From a virus: DNA of 26,009 nucleotides. The stretch covers positions 1 to 26,009 of IMG/VR virus record IMGVR_UViG_3300045538_000112. One strand, written 5' to 3'. Position numbers and translations under genes: made by a program. Every line of letters begins with the position of its first letter. The first letter of the stretch is position 1. Under the pieces are notes generated by a model. The model saw only the letters and a list, made by a program, of their open reading frames with translations, ran no database searches and was not told the origin of the DNA. Below, piece by piece: positions 4,318-21,484 of the stretch.

Positions 4318-4822
4318 CAGCCATCTCCAGTGCATGAGCGCGAACACCTTGAACGCGTCGTGTCCAACCCTTGCCGAACGTCAGGAAGGTTTTGAGGTTG
4401 CGCAGGAAGCCTATACGACGGTCACACAGGGCGTTGATAGTGGTTGCTGGTGAAGTGATGGCCGCAAGTGTCTTTGCCCCTATCTGGCCATCCTGTGCAA
4501 CGCCCAAGACAGCTTGAAGATACTTCGCAGTGCGACTTACGCCAGAGTTGACCGCAAAGTCAAACACTGCATAATCGACACCCGCCGGTAGGAAGTCACC
4601 TTGCACCTTATCCCAGTATTGGAACTTGTATATCGCACGCAGCTCTTCGTCAGTGATGTGCTTCACTGACAGCAGTCCACGCCCACGCAACTTGCGGTAG
4701 GCGTTATAGACTTCCTGCGTTACGCCCCTCATCGTAGCGTCGCCGGGGTCTTTGGGGTGGTTGACGTAACCACCCTCATGTTCAAGCACTAGGGCAAGAG
4801 CCTTTTCGAAGTTTGCCTTCAT
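4310..4822 (-). CDS. Endolysin, GH108-type muramidase with peptidoglycan-binding end
   Basis: The N-terminus contains the GH108 signature: EHEGGYVNHPKDPGDATMRG, with the probable catalytic Glu16 in EGGY. The C-terminal part (FDFAVNSGVSRTAKYLQAVL, then a QDGQIGAKTLAAI block) matches the peptidoglycan-binding domain usually paired with GH108. The enzyme would cut the glycan strands of peptidoglycan. ATG 4822 has a strong GGAGG 7 bases upstream and forms an ATGA overlap with the phosphoesterase gene. The longer frame to 4921 is a shadow. At 170 residues it is normal in length. No signal peptide is seen, so it should need a holin. Confidence 0.92.
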   Translation of the reverse strand: MKANFEKALALVLEHEGGYVNHPKDPGDATMRGVTQEVYNAYRKLRGRGLLSVKHITDEELRAIYKFQYWDKVQGDFLPAGVDYAVFDFAVNSGVSRTAKYLQAVLGVAQDGQIGAKTLAAITSPATTINALCDRRIGFLRNLKTFLTFGKGWTRRVQGVRAHALEMADV

Positions 4823-5997
4823 CCACCGTCCTCCAACATTTCTGGCGTTGCTGTGTTTGTGCCAACGCGCCCGAATTTCTTGTGGAAGGTTATTGCCGTG
4901 GCTGCGCGTTCTGCAAACCACCCGCCGCGTGCAGCATATGCATCACGTGCCGCAAGCGTTGGGTGTTGGATAACGGTCATGCCGCTATGTTCCTTCTCCT
5001 CTGCATGGTGACGGTGGCCACAGTTTGCATAGCGTTTAGTTGTCCGACCCCAAAGTGGAGCGAACTGTGCAGCAAACAACAGCGGTAGTCCTTCGTTCTT
5101 CTTCAGATGCCCATGGTGATATGCAAGCATCGTGTTGCCATGTTCGATCACATAATAAGGCAAGTCGCTGTCATTGACCGAAACGCGAGGCTCGTTTTCA
5201 TAAAGCGCCACGAACATTTTACGCAGCCAGATGGATGACGAAATGTCGTGATTGCCCTCACAAACAAGCAGCGTGACATTCTCATGCTTTTGAAGCGCCA
5301 TATCTACCAGATGACGGATCAGCTTGATTGCGACATCCACGACTTTGCCAAAGCGGCTATCAGCGTCAAGAATATGACCGTGCGATGGGGTGACAGGCAA
5401 GATGCCGTCCGCATGGAGAAAGTCACCTTGAATGTTGACAACTGCCGAACGGGACTGAGGCGCACCTTCGACAAGCATTTTCATTACGCCAATTCCGGTC
5501 TCATATGCGATATGCACATCCCAGTCCGCACCACCTTCACGATGCCAGCACAATGCCCCAAGGTGGAAGTCGGTGAACGTATATTGCGTCAGCAACTGGT
5601 CAAGCGAGACCGTGGGTGATCCAACTGGGGCGACAGGGGAAATGTCAGCGCACATCGCTGCGACTGCTGCCGCCATAATCTCCTGCTGCCGCTCGTTATC
5701 AACAGACGCCTTAACCCATTGACCGGCTGGCTTACCTTCAGCGTTGTAGTAGGTGGAAACGCCCTTGGCGACAAAGCCATCCGGCACAGGCCGTGTGAAG
5801 TCATGTTCTGGTGAATAGCCAGCCTTTGCGGCCTTTTTCTTGACACAAATATAGGTCTCGCTTGCGCCGCCTATAGCCATTCCTAGCGCGGTGGATGCCG
5901 CCCTTGCACTGCCAAACCGCTCTATTGCTTCTAAAACTTCTTTTTGGCGTGGTGTGCAATATTGATACAGGTTTTCATCTATTTTTAATGGTGACAT
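4819..5997 (-). CDS. Calcineurin-like metallophosphoesterase with N-terminal helix-turn-helix-like region
   Basis: The C-terminal two thirds carry the metal-binding motifs of calcineurin-like phosphoesterases in order: DFH (143-145), GDFLH (191-195), GNHD (248-251), YHHGH (293-297) and GHRHH (327-331). All usual metal ligands are visible, so it is probably active on a phosphoester. Residues 13-60 (TPRQKEVLEAIERFGSARAA and on) look like a helix-turn-helix of the type seen in some phage nucleic-acid enzymes, suggesting a DNA or RNA substrate. Length is 392 aa. It lies between a candidate holin and the endolysin and is coupled to the latter by ATGA, an unusual site. The substrate is unknown. Confidence 0.88.
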   Translation of the reverse strand: MSPLKIDENLYQYCTPRQKEVLEAIERFGSARAASTALGMAIGGASETYICVKKKAAKAGYSPEHDFTRPVPDGFVAKGVSTYYNAEGKPAGQWVKASVDNERQQEIMAAAVAAMCADISPVAPVGSPTVSLDQLLTQYTFTDFHLGALCWHREGGADWDVHIAYETGIGVMKMLVEGAPQSRSAVVNIQGDFLHADGILPVTPSHGHILDADSRFGKVVDVAIKLIRHLVDMALQKHENVTLLVCEGNHDISSSIWLRKMFVALYENEPRVSVNDSDLPYYVIEHGNTMLAYHHGHLKKNEGLPLLFAAQFAPLWGRTTKRYANCGHRHHAEEKEHSGMTVIQHPTLAARDAYAARGGWFAERAATAITFHKKFGRVGTNTATPEMLEDGG

Positions 5998-6248: not shown

Positions 6249-6602
6249 TTATTCCGGCAACTCTATTTCCACCCAATTCAGTGTGGATTCGTCCCAGTAA
6301 TAAGAATTTTCGTCATCTGGATGTGGCGTCGGAGCGTCCCAAAGACAGGTGTCTTCGTTGAGCGTCCACGACGGGAATGGCGAGGGTGGGATAAACGCAT
6401 CGCGCACTGGGTCGTAAGTGTAGCCGACGCCAGCGTAGTTCTTACGCAATGGACGCCCTTCAGGGTGTTGTCCGCCATAGGTGTTGTACGATGTCTGCAC
6501 GAATAGCGCGGGATCGCCAAACAGGCCCGTGTCGATAACGTCCTGTTCGATGACCAAAACTTCTGTGACGATGCCGTCGATGACTTTTGCAAAATGGCTC
6601 AT
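6249..6602 (-). CDS. Trp/Tyr-rich phage protein next to the fibre genes
   Basis: The 117-residue protein begins MSHFAKVIDGIVTEVLVIEQ and contains QTSYNTYGGQH, KNYAGVGYTYD, PPSPFPSWTLNE and YYWDESTLNWVEI blocks. I recognise this layout from hypothetical proteins common in marine and cyanobacterial phages and often found near tail-fibre genes. The aromatic, beta-like repeats suit a virion or fibre-associated role, but function is not established. It overlaps the glycine-rich gene as ATGA. Confidence 0.78.
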   Translation of the reverse strand: MSHFAKVIDGIVTEVLVIEQDVIDTGLFGDPALFVQTSYNTYGGQHPEGRPLRKNYAGVGYTYDPVRDAFIPPSPFPSWTLNEDTCLWDAPTPHPDDENSYYWDESTLNWVEIELPE

Positions 6603-7444
6603 GCGGTGTAGCTTCCCGATGAGTTGAACCTAAGAATTGTGTTTGCGCCGCTAGTCGTTACGATGGGCGAACCAGTTGTGATACCGGTGTAGCTGGCAGT
6701 TGGGATTGAAAGAATGACCACGCCGGAGCCGCCTGCGCCGCCTGTGAGGCCGCCGCTGGTGAAGCCGCCAGCACCACCGCCACCGCCTGTGTTTGCGGTT
6801 CCGGGCGTTCCGCTGACGTTAGATGCGCCACCAGCGCCGCCGCCGCCGATACCGCCGGAACCCCCAGCAGTGCCGGAGCCACCACCGCCACCGGCGCGAA
6901 AAACGGAACTCCCCGTTATGCTAGATGCTGAACCCCCACCACCAGCGCCGCCAGCGTTATTGATAGCAGTTCCACCAACAGAACCAGCGCCGCCACCACC
7001 ACCGCCAGCCAAGTCACCTGAACTACCTGCGCCACCGTTGTTACCTTGGCCGGATGTGCCCGCGCCGCCAGCGCCGGATATAAAGCCGCCACCGCCACCA
7101 GAGCCACCTGCATTGCCTACCAAAAATAAACCGTTGCCACCGATACCGCCGCCGCCGCCGACAGCATTAACGGCATTGAAGGAAGACGCGCCGCCATTAG
7201 ACCCGTAGGAAATCGAACCACCAGTACCACCAGCGCCGACAGATATTGCGTATGTAGTTCCCGAATTTAGCGTTGACGAGCCAGAGAGATACCCACCCGC
7301 TCCGCCGCCACCCCCCGCGTTGCTAAAATCGTTACTACTACCCCCTCCACCGCCACCGCCAGCAATAACTAAATAAGAGGCTGAATACGGGGCGACCACG
7401 GCAGCAGCAGCCATACCCGCCATAACGCAAAGAACGCCCGTCAT
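6599..7444 (-). CDS. Glycine-rich tail adhesin-like protein
   Basis: A 281-residue protein whose middle 200 residues are dominated by Gly with Ala and Ser (runs such as AGGGGGGGSS and GGGGGAGGYLSG). A short hydrophobic lead ends in ASYLVIAGGG, and the C-terminus (GSGVVILSIPTASYTG, then TTSGANTILRFNSSGSYTA) is the capping pattern usual in phage glycine-rich proteins. Such regions can form packed polyglycine-II helices, as in T4-like gp38 adhesins. It follows the main fibre gene by ATGA overlap, so host recognition is a fair inference. Its complementary strand shows a Pro-rich open frame that is only a mirror effect. Confidence 0.82.
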   Translation of the reverse strand: MTGVLCVMAGMAAAAVVAPYSASYLVIAGGGGGGGSSNDFSNAGGGGGAGGYLSGSSTLNSGTTYAISVGAGGTGGSISYGSNGGASSFNAVNAVGGGGGIGGNGLFLVGNAGGSGGGGGFISGAGGAGTSGQGNNGGAGSSGDLAGGGGGGAGSVGGTAINNAGGAGGGGSASSITGSSVFRAGGGGGSGTAGGSGGIGGGGAGGASNVSGTPGTANTGGGGGAGGFTSGGLTGGAGGSGVVILSIPTASYTGITTGSPIVTTSGANTILRFNSSGSYTA

Positions 7445-9249
7445 GTCACGTTGCCCGTTACGGCCCAGACAGTCGCGGTTACCTTTACCAAAGTGGCGAG
7501 GCCGTATTGGGCCAGTGTGCGTGTGCCTGTGTTGGCTGTTCCCGCCTGACGCAGCGTGTCGGAGGTTATTGAAATTGCTTGAGTGCTGCCGCTGTTGTTA
7601 AAGACAACAATCGTTGCACCGACAGGAAACGCAACAGACGCGTTCGCGGGGATCACCACGCCACCCGTCGTAATGGAGATGTGCTTGCCTACGTCGGACA
7701 GCGCCAGCGTGTACGCGCCGGTTTGGGCGTTCTGAGGCAGACCGCGAAAGCCGATGCTATCAGCGGCGATAGTTCCAGTAGCCGCAATGACAACATCTTG
7801 CTTGAGTGATGTGATGTCAGTGTTCGCGCCAGATGCCGCCGCGCCCAAAGAGGTTCTTGCCGCCGCTGCCGTACCCCCGCCCGTTCCGCCACTGGAGACA
7901 GGAAGCGTGCCTGTAACTTGGCTAGTCAGGCTCACGCCGGATAGCGTGCCCCCAAGGGTCAAGGAGCCGCTTGACGTGACAGTGCCAGTCAGCGTTATGC
8001 CGTTCACCGAACCTGTGCCACTGACAGATGTGACTGTATCCGCAGTCGCGCACTTTGCGATTGAAAGATGGTTTACTTGGGTTGCTGTTTGGCCAAGCAA
8101 TGTTCCGAGACGCCTTGCAGTACCATTGGCAACACCCCCTACCGAGACAACAAGCGCACGAGCGTCAACAATATCCCCTGCCGCCAAGGCAATCTGCGTC
8201 GATATTGAATGGCCTCGCTGCTCTGACACAGCCAGCGTTGTTTCTGTGGTGTCTATCGCGACCACTTCCCCGTTCACAAACAAACCGAGGGCGGTTGAGG
8301 ACGCCGCTGACACAGAGGAGGCCTCAATAACAACACCTGTGGTGATGTCGTAAATACCGGCTTCCGCGACAGTTATGCGCCCCGTGCTTCCGACTGTGTA
8401 GTTCGCAGTGTTGTTATTGGTGGTCGTAGTGTCGTAATCCAAAATAGTTAAGACACCCGTCGGTAGCGTTTGGTCAGCCCCAGAAGTTGTCCTGACGAAT
8501 GATTCTTGCGCAGCATTGTCAGCAGGCGTTGAGCCTCCTCCGCCACCAGAAACCGCGACAGTAGTGACCCCAGTTACCAAACCCTTCCCATTTACCGTCA
8601 CAACAGGAATAATTGTGGCGCTGCCAAACGTGCCGACATTGGGATTTACCGTAGCTAGGGTTGCACTTCCCGTTACGTTGCCCGATCCGTCAAAGGGCGC
8701 ACTCGTCCAAGCCATATCGCCAGTCATTGCTATCGTGCGTGCCGTCGTGAGCGTCGCTGCACTGCCTGTGGTGTTTTGGTTTAGGGTTGGAATGTCTGCC
8801 GCCACAATTGCGCGGAAGGTCGGCGTGCCCGAAGTCCCATTGGGACCAGCAAGGAATGTATTGGCCGTTTGTGATGCGAAGTTGGACGGCGTGACCGATA
8901 GCGTGCCGCCAAGGGTCAGCGAACCTGAAGATGTTACCGTACCTGTAAGCGTTATCCCGCTAACCGTGCCTGTCCCAGATACGCTCGTAACGCCCCCGCC
9001 AGACCCGCTGGCAGCAGTTGTTTGGGTTGTCCCATCGGGAAACTTAAAGCCACCGACAGTGCTTTCAACGATACCAGTCGCAGTAAGCGCCCCGGTTTTG
9101 CTGACAGTAAATTTTGATGCCCCGTTGAGACGCAAATCAATTAGGCGGGAGTCGGCTGCGCTCCCGGTATCCGTCACATTCAGCTTGATACCACTAAAGG
9201 TTATTCCTGCGCTGTCCCATGTGTCGCTTAGGTCGTAGATAAAAGCCAT
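7441..9249 (-). CDS. Tail fibre protein, 602 aa
   Basis: Low-complexity Ser/Thr/Gly-rich beta protein with stock fibre phrases: FPDGTTQTTA (70-79), DIPTLNQNTTGSAATLTTAR (152-171), and PVSSGGTGGGTAAAARTSLG (450-469). Residues about 250-400 form a Thr-rich block with alternating hydrophobics (GRITVAEAGIYDITTGVVIE) that resembles a C1q/TNF-like jelly-roll head. A 32-residue unit occurs twice (87-118 and 406-437). AAAGGGGAT precedes the ATG at 9249. The C-terminal part beginning near 482 (KQDVVIAATG and on) is probably the tip. It should project from the tail end and contact the host; the receptor is unknown. Confidence 0.87.
   Translation of the reverse strand: MAFIYDLSDTWDSAGITFSGIKLNVTDTGSAADSRLIDLRLNGASKFTVSKTGALTATGIVESTVGGFKFPDGTTQTTAASGSGGGVTSVSGTGTVSGITLTGTVTSSGSLTLGGTLSVTPSNFASQTANTFLAGPNGTSGTPTFRAIVAADIPTLNQNTTGSAATLTTARTIAMTGDMAWTSAPFDGSGNVTGSATLATVNPNVGTFGSATIIPVVTVNGKGLVTGVTTVAVSGGGGGSTPADNAAQESFVRTTSGADQTLPTGVLTILDYDTTTTNNNTANYTVGSTGRITVAEAGIYDITTGVVIEASSVSAASSTALGLFVNGEVVAIDTTETTLAVSEQRGHSISTQIALAAGDIVDARALVVSVGGVANGTARRLGTLLGQTATQVNHLSIAKCATADTVTSVSGTGSVNGITLTGTVTSSGSLTLGGTLSGVSLTSQVTGTLPVSSGGTGGGTAAAARTSLGAAASGANTDITSLKQDVVIAATGTIAADSIGFRGLPQNAQTGAYTLALSDVGKHISITTGGVVIPANASVAFPVGATIVVFNNSGSTQAISITSDTLRQAGTANTGTRTLAQYGLATLVKVTATVWAVTGNVT
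7939..8034 (-). repeat. Fibre module, copy 2 (32 codons)
   Basis: Encodes fibre residues 406-437, VTSVSGTGSVNGITLTGTVT and the following SSGSLTLGGTLS. It matches copy 1 at 8896-8991 in all but two residues (T to S and S to N), yet many third codon positions differ. Confidence 0.8.
8896..8991 (-). repeat. Fibre module, copy 1 (32 codons)
   Basis: Encodes fibre residues 87-118, VTSVSGTGTVSGITLTGTVT and the following SSGSLTLGGTLS. It is the partner of 7939-8034. The two copies flank the jelly-roll-like part of the fibre. Confidence 0.8.
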
Positions 9250-9302: not shown

Positions 9303-9806
9303 TTACCGCGCCATCGCAGGCACACCCCGCCCATACTTAGCAGAAATATGCTTTGCCCAACACCTTCTAAATGCCTCATGCTGGCTTTTGTCAACTTCAC
9401 CAAGTTTCGCCCTGTACGCAGCAACGTCTACAGCATGTTTTGGATGCGAGAAATCCATAACTTCCTCTTTTATGATCATGTCCGTAAGGTCTGATACAAC
9501 TCCTACGCGCAGGCCCATAAAGATAGTCGTACTGGTATCTGGGAGGTTGAAAGCGGCATCGTGCAGCGCATTAGCAACAACCTCTGCGTCAAACTTTATT
9601 ACAGGAAGATGCCTGTCTCTTGGGATGAGCACAACCACCTCTCTGTTTGGCACTGGGGTCTTTCCCCTGTGGCAAATGTAGTTTTGGTCAGAGAACAAGG
9701 CGCAAAGAGCGTCTAGGTCTTTGCTTGTCGCAAACAGGTCGATGTCATTATATGATGAATCAGCACCCTCTCTCAGGAACTTCGCATAGCCGCCGTGTAT
9801 AATCAT
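9303..9806 (-). CDS. Minimal nucleotidyltransferase-fold protein in the fibre module
   Basis: The 167-residue protein opens directly with the pol-beta nucleotidyltransferase motif: HGGYAKFL (GG at 5-6), then NDIDLF with D21 and D23, then a third acidic residue D73 in VIKFDAEV. A later SDLTDMIIKEE helix and HPKHAVDV segment (121-127) match the C-terminal element of minimal nucleotidyltransferases. All three expected metal-binding aspartates are present, so it is probably active in transferring a nucleotide to some acceptor. ATGA overlap joins it to the upstream structural gene. No partner HEPN or antitoxin gene is visible nearby. Substrate and role (host takeover, defence or virion modification) are unknown. 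Confidence 0.8.
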   Translation of the reverse strand: MIIHGGYAKFLREGADSSYNDIDLFATSKDLDALCALFSDQNYICHRGKTPVPNREVVVLIPRDRHLPVIKFDAEVVANALHDAAFNLPDTSTTIFMGLRVGVVSDLTDMIIKEEVMDFSHPKHAVDVAAYRAKLGEVDKSQHEAFRRCWAKHISAKYGRGVPAMAR

Positions 9807-10549
9807 ACCGTGCCAGTCACGTTTGCCGCCACGGGGTCTTGGACGACGCCATAAAAGGTTGTCCCGCTAGTGCCGCCTCCTGAGTCCAGTTCCACAAAAC
9901 TAGCCGCCAAAATGCTGCCGGAAGCCTGAACGCTGGTCGCTTGGATGCTGCTGCCCTCAACGCGTTCTTGGATAGTAAGCGTAAATGACAGGTCGGTGTT
10001 TAGTGTGTAGTCGTATATATCCTCCACACGAAGGAAGCTTCCTATTGCCGCATATTTCGGACCACTTGGCAATGTAGCCCCAGCCAATCCCACTGGCTTC
10101 AAATGCGCACCGTTTGTTGGGGATATTGGACCGGCGAATATCAGTAGGCCAGTATCGCTAAAAACCTCAATGCCGCGCCCAGAACTACCGCTTGCCGCAA
10201 GAGGTCTGTCGTATATCAAAAGGAACACCGAGCCGCTTGGGCTTGGCGGCGTCGCGCCTTCAGGGTAAGCGACCCCAAGGAGATAGGTCCAAGTGTTTCC
10301 CGATCTGCTTGAGTTGATTATGCCAATGACCCCAGCCGAATGAATCGCGGGGTCAGCATAGACAACCGGAACGGGGATGCTGTTGGCTGTCCCAGCATAT
10401 GATATGCTTATTGTTTGGACGGAGTTCAAATCGCCAAACGTACCAGTCCAAGCGGTGACCGATGTCTTTTGCGCAAGAGCAAGGCACGGGGACTGGTTGT
10501 CAATGACCTTGACGCCATTTGCGTTAAAGACTTCAAAGCCTACAGGCAT
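9803..10549 (-). CDS. Probable tail or fibre-network structural protein, 248 aa
   Basis: Beta-rich, Ser/Gly/Thr-rich protein without cysteine clusters or enzyme motifs. Its N-terminus, MPVGFEVFNANGVKVID, resembles that of the next upstream protein (MPAGLQTFYADGSLALD), suggesting a shared attachment element. TAATG junction with that gene and ATGA junction with the nucleotidyltransferase gene place it in the late operon just after J. A C-terminal segment (SVQASGSILAASFVELDSGG) looks like fibre shaft. Structural role is inferred from place and composition. Confidence 0.7.
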   Translation of the reverse strand: MPVGFEVFNANGVKVIDNQSPCLALAQKTSVTAWTGTFGDLNSVQTISISYAGTANSIPVPVVYADPAIHSAGVIGIINSSRSGNTWTYLLGVAYPEGATPPSPSGSVFLLIYDRPLAASGSSGRGIEVFSDTGLLIFAGPISPTNGAHLKPVGLAGATLPSGPKYAAIGSFLRVEDIYDYTLNTDLSFTLTIQERVEGSSIQATSVQASGSILAASFVELDSGGGTSGTTFYGVVQDPVAANVTGTV

Positions 10550-10821
10550 TAGAAAACCCCATAATAAAGAAGACCACCGTCTGGTCCGTCAAGGCCATAA
10601 GTAACCACGCCTGTGGTTTGGTCTACAAAGCAACTGCCATATGTTGTCGCGCCGCTTGTTAGCAGAAAAGCAAACACAAACTCGTTCGACGCCTTGGTGA
10701 CTGTCAGCGCGGAAGTAGTGTTGGCGGCAACCGTCAGAACGCCATTAAACCGGCCAGTCCGGTCAGTAATGTCGAGGGCAAGGCTGCCGTCAGCATAAAA
10801 TGTTTGCAACCCGGCTGGCAT
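10549..10821 (-). CDS. Small tail-associated structural protein, 90 aa
   Basis: ATG 10821 forms a TAATG junction with the stop of J. A TTG three codons earlier is less likely. The protein starts MPAGLQTFYADGSLALDITD and continues as alternating beta strands (GVLTVAANTTSALTVTKASN), ending DGPDGGLLYYGVF. I know such MPxGL-type short proteins from phage tail regions, where function is not defined. It probably decorates or links the tail tip. It shares its N-terminal pattern with the next gene. Confidence 0.72.
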   Translation of the reverse strand: MPAGLQTFYADGSLALDITDRTGRFNGVLTVAANTTSALTVTKASNEFVFAFLLTSGATTYGSCFVDQTTGVVTYGLDGPDGGLLYYGVF

Positions 10822-13520
10822 TATGTCCAAACTCCCAGCCGGACGCGGCGAACGTTGCTTGCGTCAAATATCTCAATCAGGTTGTCCTTGATTTCAGTTC
10901 TCGCCCCTGTGGTTGCCGTGCGCAGCGTGCCAATGGTTGCTGTGATTGACGACAACTCAGTGACGTTAATTTTAGCCGCTGTGATCGCGCCCGCCGACAC
11001 CTTATCAGCCGTAATGGCATTGGTGGCTATTTCTGTTGCGGTTACAGCATTTGCTGCGATTGTCCCAGCGGTTACTGCGGATGCGGCTATATTACCAGCC
11101 TGCACTGAACTAGCAGCAAGCTTGCCGGCAATCACAGCGCCAGCGGCTATTTTAGGTGATGATATTGCACTGTCCGTAATCTGCGTGCTAGTAATCTGTC
11201 CAGTGACTTTAGCAGCAGCCACCGCCGCAATCTGAGCGTCGGCAAGAGTACCAGTAATATCAATCGCAGGAACCGCCGCTGTCCATGCAGTTCCATTGTA
11301 GCGATACAACTTATCGTCCGTTGTCAGGAATACAACGCGACCCTCAAATAAGTCCGCCGTTGGCAGTGACCCAACAATCTCGTAACCACCCTTGGCCTTG
11401 GACAGGGAAAAGATTTTGTCAACCGCCACACCAGCATAGGCTCCAGAACCTGTAGCGCGGATCGTAAGGCTGGCGGTGTCCTCATTGGCATCGAAACCAC
11501 CAGTTACCGAATATTCTTGGCCAGAATAAACAACAGTCAGTGCTTGTGGGTTGCTCAGGGTCGAAAGCGCAAACGACGAACTTACGTCTGTATCGCCACT
11601 AAACACCTTAAAGCTACCTGTGGCCGAAGAATAAGAAACAACGCCGCCATTGGCATAAGCGAATAGCTGGACCGTTTCCCTTGTCAAATAGGCGCTGATT
11701 GCAGGAGTGCCATCCCCACCAGAAGCCAGTAGCGACCAGTTCGCTCCCGGCGGGCCGTTGTCAGCATTGGATGTGTGGGCGATAATAACTGAATAGGTTG
11801 AGCCACCCCTCTGTACAAAGTCGCCAACAAAATACTCAATTGATAAAGCCGACCACTCGCCCCTGTTGACGTTACGGGTGGCGTTGTTCTCTGGCTTAGA
11901 GCCGTTGTCATCAACGATGGCAGACCAATCTGCTGTCGTCCCAGCGTCATCAATCCCAAGGATTAGCGGGTTATTCAGAGGGTTGTAAATAGTAGGGGCC
12001 GTTGGCGTCACTGGGGCACTGTCTTCAGCGTCCCATGCGTAGATCGCAGCGTTCTCTTCGACTAGGGCAAGTGGCACTTGGCCGTCAAAGCGAATCTCTT
12101 GGCTTGCTACGCGGAATGGCTTATTGGACCATCCAAGCGCCCCAATGCTGAGAAGCACAACGTCTCCAACCTGACAGCCGAGTGCCTTGGTATTAAACAC
12201 CGCAGAGAGCATTCCGCGATACTGGTTGCGCTGGAGTATCTGCTTTGCAATTCGCTGCGCCCTGCGGCCATCCTCTACATAGTACAGGTCAATGCTCATG
12301 ACGCGCTCAACGCCATCTGGCGATGCAAAGCCGACCTCTGGATAATCAACAAGTTGGTAAAGGCTGTTTTGCGAAGGGTCGATAAAGCGGCCACGAGCAA
12401 TGTTGTAGTTTTCGGTCAGCCCACGGGTCTGCTGCCAATCGAACTCGCCCAGCATGTCGCTTTCGTCCAAGCGCAGCGTATAGTCCGCAAGGTCATTCTT
12501 CATGACGGTCAGCGTCAACTTGCCGCCGCTATCCCGAAGCGTGGCGTTCATGGACATGAGGAAGTTGTTGATAATGTCCATGCGGTCATCTGCGTCAGAC
12601 GCCGCGCCACTGGTCCGGTAGCGTTTCTGCGTACCACCTGTGGCAAGGATAACGGTCTCATCGCAAATATTTGCAGCCGTGATGAACGACTCCATATCAA
12701 TACGGGTGTAAGGAACTCCAGCGCCTACGGACAACTTTCCGTTAATCTTCCAGCCCAGAAGCCACCAGAGCAACTGGAGGGCAGGGTTGTCAGTGTCGTC
12801 GGCATCAGTGTAGACGCCCCAAGTCGATTGGTCTGTGGCGCGGTGCGATCCTGAACCGCCGGGAACCGTGCTATCTTTGCGCGGGTCATAAAGAGCAGCG
12901 CCATCACCGATAATGGTCACACGGCTAGGCAGGCCGCCCACCAATGGGCTTTCGGCCTTCTTGTCTACGCCAGTGCGCTTAATGCGCAAATGCACATAGG
13001 CGCAACCAGTAAGGCGGCGCGAGGCTCCCCATTTGCTTCCACCGTTGATGGCGATTGTGTTATCCGCCGTTCCTTCGGTGCGCGTCTGAACTGTTAGGTA
13101 TCCTGTGTACGTGGATGTCACGCCACCGCTGGATGACCACGCCAACTTCTCCTCGAACCATATCTCGTCAATGGATTTTACCTTGTGGGCCGCGACTGCA
13201 ACGATGTAGTCAACAAACTCTTGATCTGTACCACTGGACTCATGGTAACGCAGATCAAGCGGCATTGCCGTAGTGCCCAAGACCGCCTTGCGTGGGGTGC
13301 TGGGGTCAAGACTGACGTTCAGGCGAGATAGTTGTGCTTTAGGCGCTTTGGGGGCGAAGGCAGCGCCAGCGACAGTGGACAGCGCCATTGTCACGCCCAT
13401 CGCAAGGATTGTGCCACTTGTTATAGTAGCCCCTGCAATAGCCAATCCTGCTGGCGGTATTAGAAACGATACGCCGATAATTGCAGCGGCAACAACTAAA
13501 CCCTTAATAGTCCTACCCAC
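10821..13520 (-). CDS. Central tail tip protein (lambda J-like)
   Basis: About 900 residues, the largest tail gene, at the J position after the K-like gene. The N-terminus has a hydrophobic Gly/Ala stretch (GLVVAAAIIGVSFLIPPAGL) typical of J-like proteins, followed by hub-type beta domains (DYIVAVAAHKVKSIDEIWFE; TLRLDESDMLGEFDWQQTRG). The C-terminal third has fibronectin-like or Ig-like strands, then eight 10-residue repeats and a closing TEIKDNLIEIFDASNVRRVR motif. It should form the trimeric tail tip and help recognise the host. GTG 13520 is preferred because GGAG lies 8 bases upstream; GTG 13529 is an alternative. The start is uncertain, the family is not. Confidence 0.87.
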   Translation of the reverse strand: MGRTIKGLVVAAAIIGVSFLIPPAGLAIAGATITSGTILAMGVTMALSTVAGAAFAPKAPKAQLSRLNVSLDPSTPRKAVLGTTAMPLDLRYHESSGTDQEFVDYIVAVAAHKVKSIDEIWFEEKLAWSSSGGVTSTYTGYLTVQTRTEGTADNTIAINGGSKWGASRRLTGCAYVHLRIKRTGVDKKAESPLVGGLPSRVTIIGDGAALYDPRKDSTVPGGSGSHRATDQSTWGVYTDADDTDNPALQLLWWLLGWKINGKLSVGAGVPYTRIDMESFITAANICDETVILATGGTQKRYRTSGAASDADDRMDIINNFLMSMNATLRDSGGKLTLTVMKNDLADYTLRLDESDMLGEFDWQQTRGLTENYNIARGRFIDPSQNSLYQLVDYPEVGFASPDGVERVMSIDLYYVEDGRRAQRIAKQILQRNQYRGMLSAVFNTKALGCQVGDVVLLSIGALGWSNKPFRVASQEIRFDGQVPLALVEENAAIYAWDAEDSAPVTPTAPTIYNPLNNPLILGIDDAGTTADWSAIVDDNGSKPENNATRNVNRGEWSALSIEYFVGDFVQRGGSTYSVIIAHTSNADNGPPGANWSLLASGGDGTPAISAYLTRETVQLFAYANGGVVSYSSATGSFKVFSGDTDVSSSFALSTLSNPQALTVVYSGQEYSVTGGFDANEDTASLTIRATGSGAYAGVAVDKIFSLSKAKGGYEIVGSLPTADLFEGRVVFLTTDDKLYRYNGTAWTAAVPAIDITGTLADAQIAAVAAAKVTGQITSTQITDSAISSPKIAAGAVIAGKLAASSVQAGNIAASAVTAGTIAANAVTATEIATNAITADKVSAGAITAAKINVTELSSITATIGTLRTATTGARTEIKDNLIEIFDASNVRRVRLGVWT
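10971..11210 (-). repeat. Eight 10-residue repeats in the J-like C-terminus
   Basis: Units such as ITDSAISSPK, IAAGAVIAGK, IAASAVTAGT, IATNAITADK and VSAGAITAAK run in perfect 30-base register. Each has a branched hydrophobic residue at position 1 and Ile, Val or similar at position 6. Such repeats are usual in J-like stalks and probably form a trimeric helical or beta shaft. Confidence 0.8.
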
Positions 13521-13911
13521 GGCCAACACTCCAGCATTTGTCCCACATGGCGCGTGGAACTCTCTCTAAGCCGTCGTCCGAAACGAAGTAGGCGAAGCCA
13601 CCCATCACTACACCAACAGAGCCATCAAAGAAAGCCAAGTCGCCTCTTTGTGCGTGCCCAATTGCTACTTCTGGAAACTTTCCGTCAAGAGTTCCCTCAA
13701 GTGTCCCTGCGCCAATCTCTTTGATAACTTTAAGGCTGCCCTTGAGGCTGTCATACTTGCCACGGAACTCAGGCATAGGGTCTTCGCCCGTGATCGCAAT
13801 CACAGCGCCAGCCGCGAATAGGCAGCAGTCGTTGAGGCCATACTCAAACGGATCATGGCGCTTTACCGCTATGTAGTTAGTTAGCGCATCTTCCCAAGTT
13901 GGTATTCTCAT
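13513..13911 (-). CDS. Tail assembly protein, NlpC/P60-like (lambda K position)
   Basis: The N-terminal half has the cysteine motif YGLNDCCLFAAGAV with probable nucleophile Cys29, and the C-terminal half has GDLAFFDGSVGVVMGG, the layout of the DUF6950/NlpC-like proteins found between tail-tip genes. In active NlpC/P60 enzymes a His normally begins the second motif (HVGI-like); here Ser-Val-Gly stands at that place, so hydrolase activity is doubtful. Length 132 aa. It joins the next upstream gene by ATGA and overlaps the J start. Confidence 0.8.
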   Translation of the reverse strand: MRIPTWEDALTNYIAVKRHDPFEYGLNDCCLFAAGAVIAITGEDPMPEFRGKYDSLKGSLKVIKEIGAGTLEGTLDGKFPEVAIGHAQRGDLAFFDGSVGVVMGGFAYFVSDDGLERVPRAMWDKCWSVGRG

Positions 13912-14615
13912 CGCTCCATCTCCCGGCCACCGCCTTCAAATCCACCACCCGGTCCACCGCCACCATAGCTATACGAACCAGCCGCAGCCATGCCGTTAGC
14001 CGCAGATATAGCGGCTTCTGCACTTAAATCGCCAGCGTCGTATAGGTTCTGAATAAGGTAGGTCTTGTTCTGCGCTCCCGCGATGCTGACCAGATAATTC
14101 TCAATCGTCAGCGTTACGACTTGGCTATCTGGAGCGCCAGCTATGCCGACCTCGTTCATATAGCCCGTGTAGTAAGGAATAATAGAGCCGACTTGGTTTT
14201 CGTTCTGATCGACGCAATAGAACCACAGCCGAGCAGTGCGCCCTTGCCAGCGGGTCTTGTCGCCAATGACATTGAGGAAATCTGATGAACGCGCCTGTAT
14301 CAATTCCTCGCTACGGGTGTAAATTAAGTCGCCATCGCGCTCTCTGAGATAGTCAAGGTTGACAACAAGGCCACCGAGCGAAATTGACACAGTGTCTGAG
14401 CCTGTTTCGTTGTGCTTTACAGGCGAGACGTTAATCAGTTCGTGGTTGAAGCTGTCATACGTGCCATCTAACTCAGCGTCGCCGGAACCGGAGATAACTT
14501 TGTCATATAGCCCACTGGTCGCACGCAACACATCGCCCTGAAAGTCTGCATAAATCATTACGCGCCAATTGACGACTTGCGCCTCAAGTGCAGCTTGCGT
14601 GGTTGCGTCAACCAT
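13908..14615 (-). CDS. Minor tail / baseplate hub protein (lambda L position)
   Basis: A 235-residue beta-rich protein with a conserved-looking core (WRVMIYADFQGDVLRATSGL; LVVNLDYLRERDGDLIYTRS; GRTARLWFYCVDQNENQVG) and a Gly-rich tail (SYGGGGPGGGFEGGG). Position between the M-like gene and the K-like gene is that of lambda L or of DUF2163-type hub proteins. Only one cysteine is visible, so the iron-sulfur cluster of lambda L is absent. TAATG and ATGA junctions tie it to both neighbours. Confidence 0.78.
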   Translation of the reverse strand: MVDATTQAALEAQVVNWRVMIYADFQGDVLRATSGLYDKVISGSGDAELDGTYDSFNHELINVSPVKHNETGSDTVSISLGGLVVNLDYLRERDGDLIYTRSEELIQARSSDFLNVIGDKTRWQGRTARLWFYCVDQNENQVGSIIPYYTGYMNEVGIAGAPDSQVVTLTIENYLVSIAGAQNKTYLIQNLYDAGDLSAEAAISAANGMAAAGSYSYGGGGPGGGFEGGGREMER

Positions 14616-20817: not shown

Positions 20818-20846
20818 ATCATATCACCCGCAACGGATATAATCAA
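20818..20846 (-). promoter_or_regulatory. Candidate sigma-70 promoter for the capsid gene
   Basis: TTGATT (20841-20846), a 17-base spacer and TATGAT (20818-20823) match the consensus in 9 of 12 positions. The start point would be near 20811, about 20 bases before the capsid ATG. The -35 box contains the stop codon of the HNH gene. It would let capsid be transcribed independently of the inserted gene. Confidence 0.4.
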
Positions 20847-21484
20847 CTAGCTAAACGCTTCCAATCATCTGGATGCATTGCGCCTTTGCGGAGGTTGCAC
20901 TTTGGCGTTAAAAGCTGAACATTGCTATCATCGTTCAAGCCACCAAGTGCAATGGGCATGATGTGGTCTAGGTGATAACCAGTTTGCTTTAGGTCCGCAC
21001 CGCAGCAGGCGCACTTGCCTCCTTGCGCTATCATTAGGCGCTCGACAATGTCTTTGGACAATGTGCCCCCGTTGCCCTTGGTGCGGGCGCGACGGTTTTG
21101 TTGCATAACCGCGTGTTTGTCAGGGTTGGCTATTTTCCATTTTCGAGCGTAGTCAAGCACTCTGTCAATATTGGCTGCCTTCCATTTGCGACCACGCTCG
21201 CGCTCCTTTTCCAAATTAGAATAATACCGTTTTCGGTCATGTTCCCGCACCTTTTCAGGGTTGGCGGCTTGCCACTTGCGGTAATACTCGCGGTGCTTTT
21301 CTGGGCTAGCTTCGCGATATTTGCGAGCCAAGTCACGAACCTTATTGGGGTTGGTTTCGCGCCACTTGCGAAGGGCTTGGCGTTTGCAAGGTATACAAGC
21401 CCCGCGTTTATTGCGCTCCCGCGCACCACATTTGCGGCAGGGCTTGACGTCCGTGGATTCAGTGCTATTAATCTGTTCATTCAT
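20843..21484 (-). CDS. HNH endonuclease with six 15-residue repeats, inserted between portal and capsid genes
   Basis: Three parts are visible in 213 residues. A zinc ribbon at 16-33 (PCRKCG, ACIPC) comes first. Then six 15-residue basic repeats run from 39 to 128. A C-terminal HNH nuclease (about 147-205) has GGKCACCGADL, HLDHIMPIALGG with His171, Asp173 and His174, then SNVQLLTPKCNLRKG. AAAGGAA precedes ATG 21484. HNH genes standing between structural genes are often homing endonucleases that cut phage genomes lacking the gene. HNH nucleases helping terminase also exist but usually lie next to the terminase genes. Homing is thus the likelier role. Confidence 0.9.
   Translation of the reverse strand: MNEQINSTESTDVKPCRKCGARERNKRGACIPCKRQALRKWRETNPNKVRDLARKYREASPEKHREYYRKWQAANPEKVREHDRKRYYSNLEKERERGRKWKAANIDRVLDYARKWKIANPDKHAVMQQNRRARTKGNGGTLSKDIVERLMIAQGGKCACCGADLKQTGYHLDHIMPIALGGLNDDSNVQLLTPKCNLRKGAMHPDDWKRLAS
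21101..21370 (-). repeat. Six tandem 45-base units coding 15-residue basic repeats
   Basis: Units are RKWRETNPNKVRDLA, RKYREASPEKHREYY, RKWQAANPEKVREHD, RKRYYSNLEKERERG, RKWKAANIDRVLDYA and RKWKIANPDKHAVMQ, in exact register. Every unit opens with Arg-Lys, and most have Asn-Pro-Glu-Lys in the middle. They probably form a chain of basic helices that lies along DNA. Confidence 0.88.

Follow-up and report, generated by a model that had tools for sequence, protein, structure and literature searches.

Known roles of minimal nucleotidyltransferases include those of antitoxin, toxin and resistance enzyme. In the HEPN/MNT system the nucleotidyltransferase, MntA, is the antitoxin and adenylylates HepT (PMC7641770). 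In the MenT enzymes the catalytic Ser/Thr sits two residues before the first Asp, being T39 in MenT1 and S78 in MenT3, and the catalytic Lys/Asp of MenT1 are K137 and D152 (PMC10435456). No precedent for AMPylation with phage tail fibres, or for AbiEii in prophage tail modules, was found in the titles and abstracts searched. Here we describe a candidate minimal nucleotidyltransferase (NTase) gene in a viral window of 26,009 nucleotides, the whole stretch of DNA that was analysed. The main new result is genomic, namely that the gene is exchanged together with two neighbouring tail-tip genes, g93 and g248, among phage backbones. That several backbones keep it in one block with tail-tip genes suggests that it acts in adsorption or in receptor-specific exclusion.

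The open reading frame, which the preliminary description had reported without its strand, is real and lies on the minus strand (9303-9806), encoding 167 aa from an ATG at 9806. The protein begins MIIHGGYAKFL, which places the glycine motif at its extreme N-terminal end. All three motifs named earlier were recovered, HGGYAKFL at residues 4-11, NDIDLF at 20-25 and VIKFDAEV at 69-76. The window contains a single instance of the motif at this spacing and 100 shuffles contain none, which exceeds chance. The surroundings were also described correctly. The stop of the 248-aa gene and the NTase start overlap in an ATGA at 9806-9803, the fibre gene begins 53 bp downstream, and there is no HEPN or AbiEi-like neighbour, the adjacent genes being those of the tail tip and fibre. 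No convincing promoter or terminator of its own was seen in the sequence for the NTase gene. The features are collected in Table 1.

Table 1. Features of the NTase gene and its surroundings in the window.
Feature	Coordinates	Strand	Evidence or remark
NTase ORF	9303..9806	-	167 aa; relatives L001 72%, L004 57%; dN/dS 0.13; AF2 pLDDT 87.6
Residues 2-8 IIHGGYA, predicted first strand with the Gly-Gly of the NTase motif (L004 has Gly-Ser)	9783..9803	-	no helix ahead
Residues 21-25 DIDLF, predicted catalytic DxD	9732..9746	-	invariant, 3/3 members
Residues 69-76 VIKFDAEV, predicted strand with the third carboxylate, either D73 or E75 (each invariant)	9579..9602	-	alignment, AF2 model
K113...D127, site of the AbiEii/MenT-type Lys...Asp pair	9426..9470	-	K113 in 3/3 members; Tyr replaces D127 in L004
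ATGA start/stop overlap of NTase with g248	9803..9806	-	conserved in 3/3 phages
g248, tail-tip-region protein, PHROG 4062 (unknown function)	9803..10549	-	this allele only with NTase
g93, small tail-tip-region protein, PHROG 2427, cassette gene	10549..10830	-	profile match and locus comparison
TipJ, tail-tip (J-like / GTA-type) protein	10821..13529	-	DNA homology to closest backbones ends near 11881
Fibre gene (MAFIYDLSDTWD...) downstream of the cassette	7441..9249	-	N-terminus conserved among related phages
Stretch without DNA homology to nearest backbone L020	6208..11880	.	TipJ C-terminus, g93, g248, NTase, fibre, later genes

Two relatives of the NTase were found in IMG/VR. The first, L001 (contig 3300035670_000625), is intact with 175 aa and is 72% identical over 159 aa, and the second, L004 (contig 3300037346_000052), is 57% identical over 144 aa and ends at the contig edge. 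Both begin MIIHG[GS]YAKFLR, occupy the same position with an identical ATGA overlap with a g248 homologue, and retain D21, D23 and D73, the residues that had been taken as the complete catalytic set. Against the intact L001 the gene has a dN/dS of 0.13 and is under purifying selection; with values of 0.07-0.08 for g248 and g93, this comparison shows the NTase evolving faster than g248. Searches by sequence found no further homologue in 50,697 phage records, 72,556 plasmids and genome_contigs, nor in 385 genomes from the class of a Rhodobacteraceae contig. A single weak genome match was rejected as an RNase D-like protein, and motif scans of viral contigs gave chance matches only, apart from the known relatives. 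The nearest isolated phages are Roseobacter CRP phages by terminase (about 60%) and Synechococcus phages by TipJ (43%), and because of this kinship the host is probably an alphaproteobacterium. The NTase gene is absent from the CRP genomes examined.

Sequence profiles alone are silent on the protein, with no match in Pfam, NCBIfam, PHROG, PADLOC or PDB sequences. The sole Pfam hint, PF14907, has an E-value of 0.14, below the cut-off, and the weak family hints DUF7277 (E 0.034) and phrog_38282 (E 0.34) were discarded as noise. The motif is more informative. A DNA pattern for GGYA...DIDLF, run over bacterial genomes, retrieved 34 cellular ORFs with GGYA...DID[LF]F in frame. Pfam nucleotidyltransferase families match at least 28 of them, and one is clearly something else, a glycine dehydrogenase; the motif is therefore a good NTase predictor with a high positive predictive value. 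The cellular enzymes of this GGYA type (NTP_transf_5 / DUF2204 / DUF6036) share GGYA...DIDLF with the phage protein, with identical spacing in L170 and L210, but the phage protein falls below all cut-offs and has no significant similarity to them after the motif. In hhalign and a global profile test, the part beyond DIDLF was mostly no better than shuffled controls when compared with GGYA NTases, and the one of four comparisons that reached z = 2 was given no weight.

Structure prediction carries most of the assignment, which is well supported yet partly circular. An AF2 model built from a 20-row alignment, the three phage proteins and, as helpers, 17 of these GGYA proteins picked by motif, reached a pLDDT of 87.6 and a pTM of 0.80, whereas a 2-row alignment gave a useless model (pLDDT 37.5). 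Selecting the helper rows by motif makes the fold model partly circular, although it is confident also where these rows align poorly. No helix precedes the first predicted strand, and D73 and E75 lie within a predicted strand at 70-76. Foldseek against the PDB placed TglT/MenT3 on top (E 3.9e-5, prob 1.00), followed by MenT1 (E 5.9e-4) and the aminoglycoside adenylyltransferase ANT(2'')-Ia (5cfs; E 1.1e-2, prob 0.97), with TM1012 also among the best solved matches and a BFVD viral protein of equal length giving a TM of 0.62/0.60. The pol-beta superfamily is recognised by hG[GS] followed by DxD, a third carboxylate on a later strand and the NTase core fold. The phage proteins have HGGYA...DIDLF, invariant in all three members except for G/S, with D73 and E75 likewise invariant, and the model, partly circular as its alignment is, appears to have the core. 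By motif and model together, membership of the superfamily is very probable, and the earlier nucleotidyltransferase assignment stands, chiefly through AF2 and Foldseek.

Within the superfamily the protein matches no curated family. Its likeness to the AbiEii/MenT toxins (PF08843, DUF1814) had been proposed before, and it holds for the predicted core fold and the DxD, but not for the catalytic Ser/Thr, whose position is Y19, Y19 and P19 in the three members. At the site of the Lys...Asp pair, K113 is present in three of three members and D127 in two, the window and L001. Unlike that family, the phage protein has only 167 aa, its model lacks the N-terminal helix, and it sits in a phage tail operon. 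As there is no match of any member to the PF08843 profile, no catalytic Ser/Thr and no cognate antitoxin beside the gene, it is not filed under AbiEii/MenT. With MntA (PF01909) it shares minimal size, G[GS]...DxD and a third carboxylate, but MntA has GSX10DXD, and the phage protein has GG (GS in L004), 14 residues and DID, no adjacent HEPN gene and no PF01909 match. It is not filed there because the spacing differs and a HEPN gene is missing. The preliminary description had counted MNT among toxin relatives, which is not borne out, as MntA is an antitoxin (PMC7641770). ANT(2'')-Ia resembles the phage protein in predicted fold, but it shows no sequence match, and there is no sign of a resistance role.

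The genomic setting is where the locus is most distinctive. A scan based on TipJ gave 80 related loci. After TipJ come small genes of varying kind (98+219 aa, 108+246 aa, 93+241 aa, or none), then a fibre whose N-terminus these loci share. Two TipJ reading frames, L035:2619-10415 (2598 aa) and L041:9776-16666 (2296 aa), resemble fusions of the tip protein with a fibre. The NTase is carried by only three of about 70 related phages, namely the window, L049 (the locus of L001) and L050 (the locus of L004). All three have the same g93 and g248 alleles, and this g248 allele was seen solely in NTase carriers (three of three). In a tree of four backbone proteins from 72 phages, the carriers fall in three places, with three changes forced, and vertical inheritance in one clade is rejected (AU test of forced monophyly, p-AU 4.9e-8). 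The window's backbone is closest to L020 and L044, both without the g93-g248-NTase set; many genes are 88-98% identical to theirs, versus 60-88% for the same genes of L049 and L050. The DNA match of the window to L020 runs to mid-TipJ (window about 11881) and resumes from about 6207. Between L049 and the NTase-less L031, homology breaks at 12435, the end of TipJ, and resumes at 13932, within the final bases of the NTase ORF. The block exchanged against a 98+219 pair is therefore essentially g90-g247-NTase.

Because the carriers do not form one clade and have the same g93 and g248 alleles, and because in one pair the exchanged block is essentially these three genes, the NTase gene belongs to an exchangeable tail-tip cassette, g93-g248-NTase. 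The plain reading is repeated exchange of the three genes together, and the tree equally fits gain or loss. A moron, as the preliminary description had it, is an independent single-gene insertion with its own promoter and terminator. The gene is indeed accessory, but it is coupled by ATGA to g248 and is exchanged as a block with g93 and g248 rather than alone, with no promoter or terminator of its own apparent.

What the cassette enzyme does can be put forward tentatively. The explanation we lean towards, possible though short of an even chance, is that a minimal NTase transfers nucleotides to a partner specific to the cassette. The protein would be a single-domain pol-beta-type NTase with an AbiEii/MenT- and ANT(2'')-like core but without the usual N-terminal helix, and would be translated, as the third cassette gene, from the late mRNA of g248. 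We infer that D21, D23 and D73 (or E75) would hold two metal ions, and that the nucleoside monophosphate of an NTP may be moved onto a partner that varies with the cassette. The most economical partner would be the g248 or g93 tail-tip protein made alongside, or the fibre. Since the NTase travels with the same two tail-tip genes in three backbones, it is probably a gene of attachment or host range, not a stray toxin. Among a tail-tip protein, a receptor-related molecule, tRNA and a defence protein, a tail-tip protein is preferred with no more than moderate confidence, because of the g248 coupling and the exclusive co-occurrence. Against this explanation, three genomes are few, one copy is severed by a contig end, co-exchange with g93 and g248 can stem from mere adjacency, and the faster evolution of the NTase than of g248 fits a host-facing target equally well. 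The sharper proposal, that the cassette carries its own protein-modifying enzyme, which nucleotidylates the cassette's receptor-binding protein, is rather unlikely as it stands; if true, nucleotidylation would be part of virion maturation and host-range switching.

The co-exchange is also what a receptor-specific function in superinfection exclusion predicts. The enzyme would nucleotidylate a cytoplasmic precursor or regulator of the surface receptor that the cassette recognises, and infected cells or debris would stop binding the same phages. ANT(2'')-Ia, a sugar-modifying fold relative, is among the structural matches. However, genes of this kind are most familiar from temperate phages, a search for a tyrosine integrase came up empty for the window and for 9 of 10 related records, and a late operon without an apparent promoter for this gene allows late expression only, which leaves exclusion somewhat improbable. 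A host-directed MenT/AbiEii-like toxin, modifying tRNA and stopping translation late in infection, is distinctly unlikely. MenT3 and MenT1 are the top solved structures and K113 is invariant, with D127 in two of three members, but the Ser/Thr of MenT1/3/4 is replaced by Tyr/Tyr/Pro, D127 is Tyr in L004, the antitoxin gene is absent, and blocking translation from the operon that makes the virion would harm the phage. Equally doubtful is a counter-defence role, in which the enzyme would modify a host defence protein and thereby inactivate it. Minimal NTases of the MntA kind inactivate HEPN toxins such as HepT by adenylylation (PMC7641770), and tail proteins trigger some defence systems (PMC11087260), which could tie the gene to a tail cassette; yet the placement is late for such a role, PADLOC profiles gave no match, and nothing in the analysis points to a defence target. 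An unrelated fold with a coincidental motif, which the silent profile and PDB sequence searches and the non-significant remainder of the protein would allow, is very improbable given three invariant carboxylates at NTase spacing, the motif's predictive value and a model confident even in poorly aligned regions.

Three further genes of the window, each on the minus strand, lie outside the cassette. The fibre is followed by a glycine-rich 281-aa protein (6599-7444; PF21722, E 1.2e-18), which recurs at 85% in the NTase-less L036 and L038. A 392-aa protein (4819-5997) is 93% identical in L020 and L044 and about 62% in other relatives, a pattern that is another sign of mosaic exchange. Between the portal and major capsid genes lies an HNH-endonuclease-like ORF of 213 aa (20843-21484), which is nearly missing from close relatives (matches of only 23-32%) and for this reason is possibly a free-standing homing endonuclease.
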